A DNA stretch of 64,000 nt from Methylocystis sp. L43 (GTDB taxonomy: Bacteria > Pseudomonadota > Alphaproteobacteria > Rhizobiales > Beijerinckiaceae), in NCBI RefSeq assembly GCF_015709525.1, contig NZ_JADNRA010000035.1:124001-188000 (forward strand), written 5' to 3'. The first letter of the stretch is position 1; every line of letters begins with the position of its first letter. The translations under genes and the position numbers were made by a program. The notes below the pieces were generated by a model that was not told the DNA's origin, searched no databases, and saw only the letters and a list, made by a program, of their open reading frames with translations. Shown one piece after another: positions 27,250 through 32,225 of the stretch.

Positions 27250-27322
27250 TCGCAGTGAGAGAAGCAATCTTCTACGGCCACGCTCTTGACTCGCGATGCG
27301 ATCGGCACTCTATTTTGCGACA

Positions 27323-27498
27323 GACGGTTCCTAACGGGATCAAAATGGGAATGCGGTGAGCGCGCTGCTTCGTGCGCAATTCCGCGGCTGCCCCCGCAAC
27401 TGTAAGCGGCGAGCCGACGACCACTAAGCCACTGGAGCCATAAGGCTCTGGGAAGGCGGTCCGAGGCGACAACCCGCGAGCCAGGAGACCTGCCGTCG
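27323..27498 (+). promoter_or_regulatory. Cobalamin riboswitch
   Basis: The conserved core is visible: GGGAATGCGGTGAG, then GGCTGCCCCCGCAACTGTAAG, the GCCACTGG segment, GGGAAGGC, and the B12 box AGCCAGGAGACCTGCC (27478-27493). It lies about 120 nt upstream of the btuB start. Binding of adenosyl- or other cobalamins should repress the operon downstream. Confidence 0.95.
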
Positions 27499-27620
27499 CT
27501 TCGTGGTCACGCGCGAAAGCGTCGGGCGGGGTGCACCGATGCGGCCGATGCCCTGCGTCTTTAGCGGCGTGTGGCGGAGACCTTTCGCAGTGACGGCCCA
27601 CGTTCGCTGCGAGTCCAGCT

Positions 27621-29699
27621 ATGCCTTCCCACATTTTTACGACCGCCTTGCGCGGCGCGTTTGTGCTGTCTTTTTCCCTCTCCACTTCCGTCGCTTTCGC
27701 TCAGCAATCCCTGCCGGTCATTGAGGTCGGCCCGTTGAGTCCGGCGCAGCCAGGCTCCCCGGGCGAGGCGCTTGAGGACCAAACCGTCGTCACGCCGACG
27801 CGCGTCGAGCAGCCGGCGTCGAGCAGCGGCGCCTCAGTCAGCGTCATTCATGCGCGTGATATCCAGAAGCGCGGATCGCTCGGCTTCAATGACGTTCTGC
27901 GCGGCGTGCCGGGACTCGACGTCTTTTCGAACGGCGGGCCTGGAACACAAACCTCCGTCGCCTTGCGCGGCTCGACGCCCGGCCAGACATTGGTGCTGAT
28001 CGACGGAATCCGCATTGGCGATCCGACGAGCACGGACGGTTCGGTCGATTTCGGCCAGCTCATTCCGACCGACATCGAGCGCATCGAAGTGCTGCGCGGT
28101 CCGCAATCGGCGCTTTACGGCTCCGATGCGATGGGCGGCGTGATCAATATCATCACGCGCCGCGGCAAGGGCGCGCCGCAAGGCTGGCTCATGTCGGAGG
28201 CCGGCGCTTATGGAACGTCGTCGTCGCGCGCGTCGATCTCAGGAAGCGACGGGCGCGGCGCTTACGCGCTGTCGATCTCGGGCCTGCACGCCGACGGCTT
28301 TCCGCGCTACGGCTATCGTCAGCAGCGTCCGATCTTCATCGGCGATCAGACGACGCCGCTGCCGCCGCTTCCCGCCAACGATCCGACGAACAATGTCGGC
28401 GTCACCGGGCGCATCGGCTATGAATTCACCGAAGATGCGCGAATCGAGGCGGGCCTCGCCGGCTACGACAGCGCCATTCGCTACGACAATCCCTACGCCT
28501 TCAATCCTTGGAGCGTCTTCGATCGTTTCAATCATCAGCATGCGACATTCATGCAGGGCTATGTGCGGCTCGGCGCCGAGATGTTCGACAAGAGTCTGCG
28601 CAACCGGCTGACGCTCTACGCCAATCGCGGCAACCGCGACGCCTGGATGACGGAAGCCTGTTTCGACATGCGGACCTTCACATCGCAGAACTGCCGTTTC
28701 GGTTATCTCGGCGGGCGCAGGGGCGTCGAATATCAGAGCGATGTCGCGCTTGGGCCGCTGGGTCTTGCGACCATCGGCGCGCGTGTCGAAACCGAGACGG
28801 CGCAGAATTCGCGCGAAGCCTGGATCGTCGATGATTACGCGCCGACGCACGCTGTCCAGACGACATGGTCCGGCTACGCGCAGCATCAGTTCACTTTGTT
28901 CGACCGGCTCGACATTTCTTATGGCGGGCGCGCCGATGCGGTGAGCAACAACCAAACTTTTCTCACCTGGCGGACGATGGCGAATTTCCGCATCGATGAG
29001 ATCGGCATGCGGCTGCGCGGCTCTGCGACGACCGGCGCGAAAACCGCTTCGCTCTATCAGCGATTCAGCCAGTACGGCGATCCAACGCTCGCGCCCGAAC
29101 GCGTCATCGGCTTCGACGCCGGCGTCGATCAGAGCTTTTTTGGCGGCCGCGCCACGGCCTCCGTCTCGGTCTTTCACAATCGCTACGAAAATCTTGTTCA
29201 ATTCGGAAAGGCCGAGAGTTGCACGTCGACGCAGATCTTCGGCTGCTATTTCAATGTCGGGCGCGCGGATACGCGCGGCGTCGAATTTTCCGGCGAAGCT
29301 GCTCTCGCGCCAGGCGCTCTGCTGTTACGCGGAAGTTACACGTTTCTCGCCGCGCGAAATCTCGATGATGACGAGGGCAGCATTTACGCCGGACGCACGC
29401 TGTTGCGCCGTCCGCGTCACAAGGGCATGTGGTCGGTCATTTATACGGGATTGCCGGGTCTCGAACTTGAGGCGCGCGCCAATATCGTCGGCGCCGCGCA
29501 TGACGTGGACTTTATCTTCAACAGACGCGTGATGCTCGCGCCCTATGTGCGGCTCGATCTCTTCGCCAATTACAGGCTGACCGACCAGCTGACGCTGCAT
29601 GCGCGCATCGAGAATGTGGGCGATGCGCTCTACGAGGAAGTCTACAATTATTCGACGACGGCGCGCGCCTTCTATGGCGGCGTGAAATACGCCTGGTGA
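27621..29699 (+). CDS. btuB: TonB-dependent vitamin B12 receptor
   Basis: A 692-residue outer-membrane receptor. A signal peptide ends near VAFA/QQ, a TonB-box-like DQTVVTPTR lies at about 52-60, the plug domain (ISGSD follows later; plug motif LRGSTPGQTLVLIDGIRIGD) occupies about 60-190, and a 22-strand-type barrel ends in a terminal aromatic (YAW). Substrate assignment to cobalamin rests on the riboswitch just upstream and BtuB-like plug sequence. It overlaps or abuts the next gene, so at least three genes are probably cotranscribed. Confidence 0.93.
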   Translation: MPSHIFTTALRGAFVLSFSLSTSVAFAQQSLPVIEVGPLSPAQPGSPGEALEDQTVVTPTRVEQPASSSGASVSVIHARDIQKRGSLGFNDVLRGVPGLDVFSNGGPGTQTSVALRGSTPGQTLVLIDGIRIGDPTSTDGSVDFGQLIPTDIERIEVLRGPQSALYGSDAMGGVINIITRRGKGAPQGWLMSEAGAYGTSSSRASISGSDGRGAYALSISGLHADGFPRYGYRQQRPIFIGDQTTPLPPLPANDPTNNVGVTGRIGYEFTEDARIEAGLAGYDSAIRYDNPYAFNPWSVFDRFNHQHATFMQGYVRLGAEMFDKSLRNRLTLYANRGNRDAWMTEACFDMRTFTSQNCRFGYLGGRRGVEYQSDVALGPLGLATIGARVETETAQNSREAWIVDDYAPTHAVQTTWSGYAQHQFTLFDRLDISYGGRADAVSNNQTFLTWRTMANFRIDEIGMRLRGSATTGAKTASLYQRFSQYGDPTLAPERVIGFDAGVDQSFFGGRATASVSVFHNRYENLVQFGKAESCTSTQIFGCYFNVGRADTRGVEFSGEAALAPGALLLRGSYTFLAARNLDDDEGSIYAGRTLLRRPRHKGMWSVIYTGLPGLELEARANIVGAAHDVDFIFNRRVMLAPYVRLDLFANYRLTDQLTLHARIENVGDALYEEVYNYSTTARAFYGGVKYAW

Positions 29700-29713
29700 T
29701 GAGGGAGATCGAC

Positions 29714-30313
29714 ATGGAAACGAATTCAGACCTAAAACCAAGCGTAACGCCAAGACGCATCGTCGAGCCCGACGGCGCATCGCTCGACGTCTTCTCGCTG
29801 CCGCTGGATACGGCGAGTCTTGAAGAACTGTTTCGCGACCTTTTCGAACATCACTGGCGCGAGATCGTCTTCGGACCGATCATTCAGGGCGCGGCGTGGG
29901 AGATCCACGCCGATCGTGCGCCAACGCGCATAAGGCTGCTCGACGGCTATCTCACCGTCGCTTTCGGCGTCACGCACTTCCATGTCTGCATCGGCGAGAA
30001 CAAGGGATCGCGCGCGCGGCCGACGTCTCCCGAACTTGCTAAGCTCAGACGCACGTCGCGCGCCGAACTCTATCGGCGGCGAAACACGAGCTGCGTGCCG
30101 ATGTCGTGGGGACTGCAGCTGTTCAATGGCGCCGGCGAACAGCAGATCACCGTGCTGCTGCCCAATCCGTTCCTCGACGCGGAGACGGACAAAGTCCTCA
30201 AAGAACCGGATTGGTCGCGCTTGGCGCTGTGGGACAAATTGCGCGCGCGCTGGTTTGGCCTGCACGAGCCTGATCCCATCGATCGTTCAGCAGGCCGGTT
30301 GCGAGGAGACTGA
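29714..30313 (+). CDS. Conserved hypothetical protein in B12-riboswitch operon
   Basis: A 199-residue soluble protein without signal peptide or membrane helix. I do not recognise a catalytic family. Notable segments are LFEHHWREIVFGPIIQGAAWEI, the short His motif THFHVCIGENKG and an Arg-rich stretch. The ATG at 29714 follows GAGGGAG by six bases; ATG at 29699 would overlap the btuB stop. Because it is placed directly between btuB and a membrane-protein gene under a cobalamin riboswitch, a role in cobalamin or cobalt handling is likely but inferred from context only. Confidence 0.75.
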   Translation: METNSDLKPSVTPRRIVEPDGASLDVFSLPLDTASLEELFRDLFEHHWREIVFGPIIQGAAWEIHADRAPTRIRLLDGYLTVAFGVTHFHVCIGENKGSRARPTSPELAKLRRTSRAELYRRRNTSCVPMSWGLQLFNGAGEQQITVLLPNPFLDAETDKVLKEPDWSRLALWDKLRARWFGLHEPDPIDRSAGRLRGD

Positions 30314-30367
30314 CGCGCCGCGCTTTTGAATTCGACTTCCCCGTGTTCACTTGAAAGGAGAAACCTC

Positions 30368-30922
30368 ATGTCGCTGACGCTTTCCACTCTGCCGACGACA
30401 AACCGCCGCATCTTCTGGGCCGCGACCTTCATCGCCGCGAGCGTCATTTTCAGCTTCGGTTGGGCGTGCGCCTTGCCGCTCGCGGGCTTCGCCGCCGTCG
30501 CGGCGCTCACCAGCGCGCGTCACGAGGCCCTGCTGCTGACGGGCGCAGTCTGGTTCGCCAATCAGGCCGTGGGTTTTCTTTTCCTGCATTATCCGACGGA
30601 CGCCATGACGCTGTTTTGGGGCGGCGCGCTCGGCGTCATCGCTCTGCTGTCGTGTGAAAGCGCCGGCCTGCTCGCGCGCCGCTTTTCTGGTTTCGCTGGC
30701 GGGCTCGCCGCTTTCCTTGCGGCTTTCGTCGTCTATGAGAGTCTGGTTTTGGCGGTTACGGCGGCGACGGGCCCCGGCGTCGACCATTTCACCGCGCCGG
30801 TCGTGACGCGGATCTTTCTCATCAATCTCAGCGCCTTTGTTGCGCTGCTGATGTTGAAGGCCGCAGGCGCCGCGGCAGCGAAGCGCGATGTGACGAAGGC
30901 GCTCGCCCCGCATCCGATCTGA
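30368..30922 (+). CDS. Hydrophobic membrane protein in B12-riboswitch operon
   Basis: A 184-residue protein with five or six membrane helices and a short basic C-terminal tail (KRDVTKALAPHPI). It starts at 30368 after AAGGAG. No ATP-binding or known permease motif is visible. Size and helix count are like an ECF-transporter S component or a small cobalamin/cobalt permease, but I see no sequence proof. It follows btuB and a soluble gene under the riboswitch. A decayed partial copy lies at 32084. Confidence 0.75.
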   Translation: MSLTLSTLPTTNRRIFWAATFIAASVIFSFGWACALPLAGFAAVAALTSARHEALLLTGAVWFANQAVGFLFLHYPTDAMTLFWGGALGVIALLSCESAGLLARRFSGFAGGLAAFLAAFVVYESLVLAVTAATGPGVDHFTAPVVTRIFLINLSAFVALLMLKAAGAAAAKRDVTKALAPHPI

Positions 30923-32083: not shown

Positions 32084-32225
32084 GCTCTCGTCAGCGCCGG
32101 ACTGCTCGCGCGCCGCTTTCATGGTTCCGCTGACGTCGTCGCAGCGCCTGTCGATCCTAAAGGCCGCAGGCGCCGCGGTAGCCAACCGCGATGTGACGAA
32201 GGCATTCGCCTCGCGCCCGATCTAG
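32084..32225 (+). pseudogene. Decayed partial copy of the membrane-protein gene at 30368
   Basis: Two blocks match the gene at 30368-30922. One is AGCGCCGG, then CTGCTCGCGCGCCGCTTT, from its middle. The other is its last 60 bp (the encoded end reads LKAAGAAVANRDVTKAF versus LKAAGAAAAKRDVTKAL), continuing past the stop into GGAGCCGTCGACGA shared by both loci. About 150 bp between the blocks are missing and the two blocks lie in different frames, so it cannot make the protein. Confidence 0.8.

Follow-up and report, generated by a model that had tools for sequence, protein, structure and literature searches.

A cobalamin riboswitch-headed operon of Methylocystis sp. L43 encoding a BtuB-like receptor, a DUF7676 protein and a predicted S-component-like membrane protein: a candidate corrinoid-import system

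It is stated in PMC6072759 that many B12-dependent Gram-negative bacteria possess BtuB without BtuCDF and that the inner-membrane B12 proteins have mostly yet to be identified; Rodionov et al. 2003 is cited there as having proposed that alternative B12 transporters exist. The usual arrangement, as given for Methylobacterium in PMC3621897, is a riboswitch-led btuBFCD set. A described alternative is BtuM (22 kDa) of Thiobacillus denitrificans, which resembles an S-component but has no energy-coupling factor (ECF) module. It rescues B12-dependent E. coli growth, binds cobalt via a cysteine of loop L3 (Cys80), may use facilitated diffusion and has its gene near an adenosyltransferase gene (PMC6072759). 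The present work concerns an operon of Methylocystis sp. L43 in which a cobalamin riboswitch heads the genes for a BtuB-like receptor, a soluble protein of family DUF7676 and a membrane protein (MP). The operon is located in a window of 64 kb, i.e., the whole stretch of DNA analyzed (contig NZ_JADNRA010000035.1, positions 124,001 to 188,000), to which all coordinates refer. We consider it probable that this is a cobalamin-repressed, self-contained corrinoid-import operon, with MP as a solitary S-component-like importer acting without ATP and the DUF7676 protein as a cytosolic corrinoid trap.

The riboswitch aptamer (RF00174) was found at 27309-27511 on the plus strand with 124.1 bits (E 1e-30, full model 1-189; gathering score 31.5), and it was the sole Rfam match at the gathering threshold in the window. 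It is followed on the same strand by the genes for the 692-residue receptor (27621-29699), the 199-residue DUF7676 protein (29714-30313; PF24724, E 6e-70) and the 184-residue, six-helix MP (30368-30922), separated by gaps of 14 nt (receptor-DUF7676) and 54 nt (DUF7676-MP), and a GGAG-type Shine-Dalgarno sequence was seen by eye ahead of the MP gene. This is the operon described in the original prediction, made from the sequence of the window, although the start given there (27323) falls 14 nt inside the aptamer. Both partners of the receptor had been called unassigned, which holds for MP, for which no Pfam or NCBIfam family was found at E ≤ 1, but not for the soluble protein, which belongs to Pfam DUF7676, a family of unknown function. 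Like BtuB, the receptor consists of a TonB plug (Plug, E 4.9e-29) and a barrel (TonB_dep_Rec, E 9.3e-38) and is under cobalamin control. Its top NCBIfam model was TIGR01779 (TonB-B12) with 263.4 bits versus a cut-off of 599.7, and since this cut-off was missed the receptor is named only BtuB-like.

The operon occupies the same pathway position as BtuFCD, downstream of a BtuB-like receptor and under a cobalamin riboswitch. It differs from that system in its genomic background: in the whole genome (4.06 Mb, 35 contigs, 100% complete) no match was found to the FecCD permease family (PF01032), to Peripla_BP_2 (BtuF-type, PF01497) or to CbiQ/EcfT (PF02361). The absence of BtuFCD genes, originally claimed from the window, is borne out at the family level for the entire assembly, in which neither a BtuFCD-type importer nor an ECF module was detected. 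Two cobalamin riboswitches occur in this genome in total; the second (minus strand, locus L002) heads nothing but a frame recognized by eye as CbtA-like, an adenosyltransferase-like frame being oriented divergently from it. At the sequence level, riboswitch, receptor, DUF7676 protein and MP are all present, and BtuC-type permeases, BtuF-type proteins and EcfT/CbiQ went unmatched in these family searches.

The predicted structure of MP (pLDDT 85, pTM 0.81) contained six helices. The ten top VIA entries were all chains of ECF transporters with Z 9.5-11.8, the next entry having Z 7.0, although Z values below about 13 can be due to chance for helical bundles. The top match was TmRibU (Z 11.8, 3.0 Å over 150 residues), and the S-components matched in this range (RibU, BioY, ThiT, PanT, CbiM) included biotin, thiamin, pantothenate and cobalt types, the last represented by CbiM (5x3x_M, Z 10.1). 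Between 146 and 168 of the 184 residues were superposed, with a sequence identity of 10-14%. The Foldseek result (E 0.26, probability 0.95) was weak by itself. Because of this weak Foldseek result and of Z values within the range possible by chance, both of which count against the proposed role, an ECF S-component fold of MP is regarded as likely but not proven. Profiles built from two MP alignments gave nothing at E ≤ 10 against the sequences of the Protein Data Bank (hmmsearch). Among 31 diverse MP relatives, scattered weak Pfam/NCBIfam matches of single members (best E 0.0011, to a chlorophyll synthase model) were judged to be chance.

The topology was deduced from an alignment of 31 diverse members, from which the homologue of locus L195, with a stop in frame, was left out. 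The mean number of lysine plus arginine residues was 0.0-0.1 in loops L1, L3 and L5 and at least 1.4 in L2, L4 and both ends; from this distribution both ends are predicted to lie inside, L1, L3 and L5 being the outer loops. Cys34 in outer loop L1 (codon at 30467-30469, plus strand), a candidate axial cobalt ligand, was the only invariant cysteine (31/31). Pro37, Gln66 and Trp84 were invariant too, and Tyr75 and Pro76 of L3 were found in 30/31 members.

In agreement with BtuM, MP is a protein of about 20 kDa with six helices, both ends cytosolic and an S-component fold (predicted for MP), without an ECF module; it also has receptor and adenosyltransferase genes nearby and one invariant outer-side cysteine. 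In contrast to BtuM, this cysteine is in L1 (Cys34) and not in L3 (Cys80), where MP has a Leu-x-Tyr-Pro motif and only 3/31 members have a cysteine within residues 72-78, at position 72. Since the L3 cysteine is lacking and the invariant one is in L1, on this evidence MP would work like BtuM by analogy but is not classed as BtuM; BtuM was not among the Foldseek and VIA matches listed for MP, which excludes nothing. From the ECF S-components that it resembles in predicted fold MP differs in that no MP-bearing genome of the genus, its own included, gave an EcfT/CbiQ match (PF02361, 0/24); among all MP genomes the count was 5/40.

The original prediction had proposed to look for the pair of membrane and soluble protein beside cobalamin riboswitches in genomes without btuFCD. 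The close sample comprised 61 genomes, i.e., the own genome and 60 relatives, 37 of the 61 belonging to the genus of the window. MP was present in 25/61 genomes and, within the genus, in 24/37. Among 37 MP places, 5 C-terminal fragments were excluded, and 29 of the remaining 32 full-length copies were preceded by a same-strand cobalamin riboswitch at a distance of 2.7-4.7 kb; in the other three, the contig extended upstream for only about 0.8, 1.1 and 1.9 kb. The chance expectation of an upstream riboswitch, computed for four genomes, was about 0.0015-0.003 per MP copy. FecCD was not matched in 20/24 MP-bearing congeners, nor in 11/13 MP-less ones, and Peripla_BP_2 was not matched in 17/24 MP-bearing congeners. 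The earlier suggestion that MP could be a component of an alternative inner-membrane cobalamin importer gains support from the S-component-like model, the riboswitch linkage and the congeners without FecCD, and we retain it as a model-based proposal.

DUF7676 was found in 23/24 MP-bearing congeners, the exception being genome G024, and in 0/13 MP-less ones. In 8 of the MP-less congeners all riboswitches were read (11 loci; the other five genomes, which are less complete, were left unread), and no receptor-DUF7676-MP operon stands behind any of these riboswitches, which are followed by CobN-type cobalamin-synthesis runs in 8 cases (identified by eye) and by a different receptor alone in 3. This co-occurrence, together with the loci of the MP-less genomes, indicates at the level of gene content that receptor, DUF7676 and MP are gained and lost as a unit in the genus, G024 excepted. 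In two congeners with an MP free of stops the DUF7676 gene is disturbed, being broken by an in-frame stop in G007 (G007:C1:4100280-4100767) and matched only as two pieces in G029 (G029:C5:21291-21603).

The DUF7676 protein has no strongly hydrophobic N-terminal stretch in its hydropathy profile. All 17 members compared (17/17) match DUF7676, and no heme-carrier Pfam family was listed for them to E 10, though the HMMER filters drop most weak matches. Against the sequences of solved structures only weak matches (E 1.3) to butirosin-protein entries were obtained, and these were set aside. Comparison of the predicted structure gave, inter alia, a Foldseek match to HutX with E 2.6e-4 and probability 1.00. 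The first 15 of 33 VIA entries had Z 5.9-10.3, followed by Z 3.4; 12 of these 15 are titled ChuX, HutX, HemS, PhuS, ChuS or putative heme-binding, and 3 are untitled structural-genomics entries. A HutX/ChuX heme-carrier fold is therefore predicted for the DUF7676 protein, which also shares with HutX, ChuX and HemS the lack of a signal peptide and an operon with a TonB receptor. It differs from them in the cobalamin-regulated operon, apparently also in sequence family (no listed Pfam heme-carrier match), and in the motif HFHxC (His88, His90 and Cys92; 29975-29989, plus strand), whose three named residues were invariant in 17/17 members and are candidate cobalt ligands.

From the above features we infer substrate, direction and binding for the MP/DUF7676 system as follows. 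The receptor would carry cobamides over the outer membrane. MP would take the corrin at its periplasmic face, where Cys34 in L1, next to the L3 motif Leu-x-Tyr-Pro, is probably the cobalt ligand, and would move it inward independently of ATP, as proposed for BtuM. The DUF7676 protein would bind the corrin in the cytosol, thereby sustaining the inward gradient of a passive importer, and would deliver it to adenosylation or remodelling; this part may be played in other lineages by a BtuF-like protein of the cytosol instead of DUF7676. More tentatively, and with some doubt on our part, this could be generalized to a mode of ATP-independent B12 import in which a solitary S-component-like family grips cobalt by a cysteine of L1 and is served by a cytosolic trap of heme-carrier fold, interchangeable with a BtuF-like protein. 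A solitary S-component-like vitamin importer is of a known kind; the partner of predicted heme-carrier fold is unexpected. Finding this fold encoded in a B12 operon would suggest a B12 trafficking protein of bacteria, one that maintains the inward direction of a passive importer. For the inner-membrane step, the MP family is a concrete B12 candidate among Alphaproteobacteria, including methane oxidisers, and in some of these no BtuC-type permease was matched.

The gene neighbours in the genus are in keeping with such a role. A cobalamin adenosyltransferase of PduO type (PF01923) is encoded 3′ of MP in locus L093, with similar frames recognized by eye in L094 and L100, and CbiZ (adenosylcobinamide amidohydrolase, PF01955) is encoded 3′ of MP in L095 and L097 and, by eye, in L096, L098, L099 and L101. 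Judged from these gene assignments, adenosyltransferase and CbiZ neighbours agree with a scheme in which imported corrinoids are trapped and remodelled. The congener receptors are either BtuB-like or of a longer type of about 860 residues. In addition, in eight loci (L106, L107, L108, L109, L110, L113, L115 and L120) a second cobalamin riboswitch lies ahead of the gene for another type of TonB receptor (about 800 residues), which stands alone (G002, G030 and G011) or adjoins the MP operon.

Beyond the close sample, an MP profile search gave matches in 18/397 genomes of the order (10/141 genera), and MP was recorded in 40 named loci, including Methylosinus, Beijerinckia, Methylovirgula and several sphingomonads. 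The order riboswitch-receptor-DUF7676-MP was found in Methylocystis and in Beijerinckia (L160), the order riboswitch-receptor-MP in L166, L169, L190, L194, L196 and Methylovirgula (L171 and L173), and riboswitch-receptor-MP-BtuF-like in sphingomonads. MP and a BtuF-like protein without a receptor were present in L188, L189 and L195 (the MP frame of L195 holds a stop), while in L192 the order is CbtA-MP-BtuF-like, adjoining metH (by eye). In L193, L197 and L198, MP lies within clusters of cob biosynthesis genes, which except for CobS were named by eye; locus L172 was cut off. A BtuF-like protein adjoins MP in L174, L178, L184, L188, L189 and L192. The BtuF-like starts lack a clear signal peptide in L174, L178, L188, L189, L192 and L092 (in L092 about 1.2 kb from MP), and for this reason these proteins are probably cytosolic. 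In L188, L189 and L192 no ABC permease was recognized adjoining the BtuF-like proteins beside MP. Cytosolic BtuF-like proteins could possibly represent a general class of corrinoid binders.

DUF7676 itself is rare (3/398 genomes of the phylum sample). Its sole member outside the genus in this sample (L112) shows the order riboswitch-receptor-DUF7676-BtuF-like, with no MP within the 16 kb read. The earlier suggestion that the soluble protein is the partner of MP consequently applies to part of the family: on gene order the partnership appears tight only in Methylocystis and Beijerinckia, whereas other lineages have MP without DUF7676, often with a cytosolic BtuF-like protein.

Several observations weigh against the proposed import role, in addition to the modest fold scores of MP. 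The model of the DUF7676 protein had pLDDT 74, and five models spread from 74 down to 42. Given the arrangement in L112, DUF7676 may act with a different importer. Of the 42 wider MP loci scanned (L145-L157 not among them), a set that includes repeats of close-sample loci and copies of one mobile cassette, only 24 had a cobalamin riboswitch on the same strand in the 6 kb upstream, and nothing corrinoid-like was found directly beside MP in L167, L168, L170, L177, L185, L186 and L187. MP occurs together with FecCD in 4/24 congeners and in G059, where riboswitch, BtuF-type protein, FecCD, ATPase and MP stand in a row, and FecCD is present in 28/35 MP genomes of the wider set, in one of which the match is weak and partial; a 36th genome, G092, was included in the same search for its DUF7676. 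A general replacement of BtuCD by MP was rejected on the 28/35 count; the 7 wider-set MP genomes lacking a FecCD match belong to Methylosinus, Methylocapsa, Methylovirgula and related Beijerinckiaceae or other proteobacterial records. Finally, SbmA_BacA (PF05992) was matched six times in the own genome and was present in 24/24 MP-bearing congeners, and import of cobalamin by a mycobacterial BacA is described in PMC10960864. Taken together, these matches and this precedent mean that SbmA/BacA-type proteins may provide a second B12 route in Methylocystis.

The G059 gene order, the frequency of FecCD in the wider set and the SbmA/BacA-family matches would all suit a function of MP as an accessory to another pump, either BtuCD or, in Methylocystis, one of SbmA/BacA type, for example in capturing, decyanating or anchoring corrinoids. 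We regard this as unlikely, since MP is found without any FecCD match in most congeners, the six PF05992 places of the own genome are far from both riboswitches, and solitary S-component-like proteins, BtuM and BioY, transport without a module (PMC6072759). The original prediction had also allowed for cobalt as the substrate. MP would then be a Co2+ importer with a CbiM/NikM-related fold, riboswitch-controlled like CbtAB, the receptor would bring a cobalt complex and DUF7676 would serve cobalt insertion. This variant appears rather unlikely in comparison with corrinoid import, although the S-component matches include CbiM, MP adjoins CbtA in L192 and is found inside cob clusters in L193, L197 and L198, and the second riboswitch of the own genome heads the CbtA-like gene. 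With CbtAB and other riboswitch-controlled cobalt transporters MP shares the type of control and this one locus beside CbtA; it differs from CbtAB in having no Pfam family and in its usual partners, which are the receptor, BtuF-like proteins and corrinoid enzymes. The metal site of CbiM and NikM is an N-terminal Met-His, which was not seen in MP; MP has no invariant histidine, Cys34 being its only invariant residue of the Cys/His type. The tetrapyrrole-carrier fold modelled for DUF7676, the corrinoid-type partners (BtuF-like proteins, PduO and CbiZ) and the CbtA-like gene already available in the own genome likewise argue against a Co2+ importer.

The HutX/ChuX fold of the DUF7676 model could also indicate an operon for other cargo, such as heme or an iron chelate, with DUF7676 as a heme carrier and the riboswitch secondary. 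Some cassettes have receptors that look siderophore-receptor-like by eye, and a PepSY_TM protein, a gene type usually linked to iron chelates, is encoded between receptor and DUF7676 in two of them (L102 and L103). We nevertheless hold this explanation to be very unlikely, because a cobalamin riboswitch precedes all 29 MP copies with enough upstream sequence and PduO and CbiZ genes lie 3′ of MP in several cassettes; moreover, no heme-degradation gene was recognized by eye beside the cassettes, no search having been aimed at such genes.

In a full-text literature search no paper describing a receptor-DUF7676-MP operon was found, as judged by title or the start of the abstract. The name BtuN occurs with cobalamin in the genome papers PMC7038796 and PMC8954225, in passages that give no sequence; if MP is BtuN, its link to B12 was predicted earlier.

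Within the sphingomonads, the riboswitch-receptor-MP-BtuF-like cassette shows >99.8% identity across at least about 4.5 kb among Qipengyuania, Parapontixanthobacter, Aurantiacibacter, Sphingobium and Sphingomonas (L178-L184), with 98.1% in L184, a metagenome-assembled genome of Citromicrobium. An integrase-like gene was seen by eye near the cassette in L178 and L184. These identities point to a recent transfer of the B12-uptake cassette among sphingomonad genera.

The promoter and terminator scan gave counts near those of shuffled sequences (1 versus 0.6, and 6 versus 4.1, sd 1.7), and PADLOC gave no match. Downstream of the operon, at 32094-32222 on the plus strand, a decayed C-terminal piece of a second MP copy was found (residues 143-184, 55% identity, E 4e-4), and comparable C-terminal pieces of MP were seen close to the operon in the congeners G023, G017 and G004.

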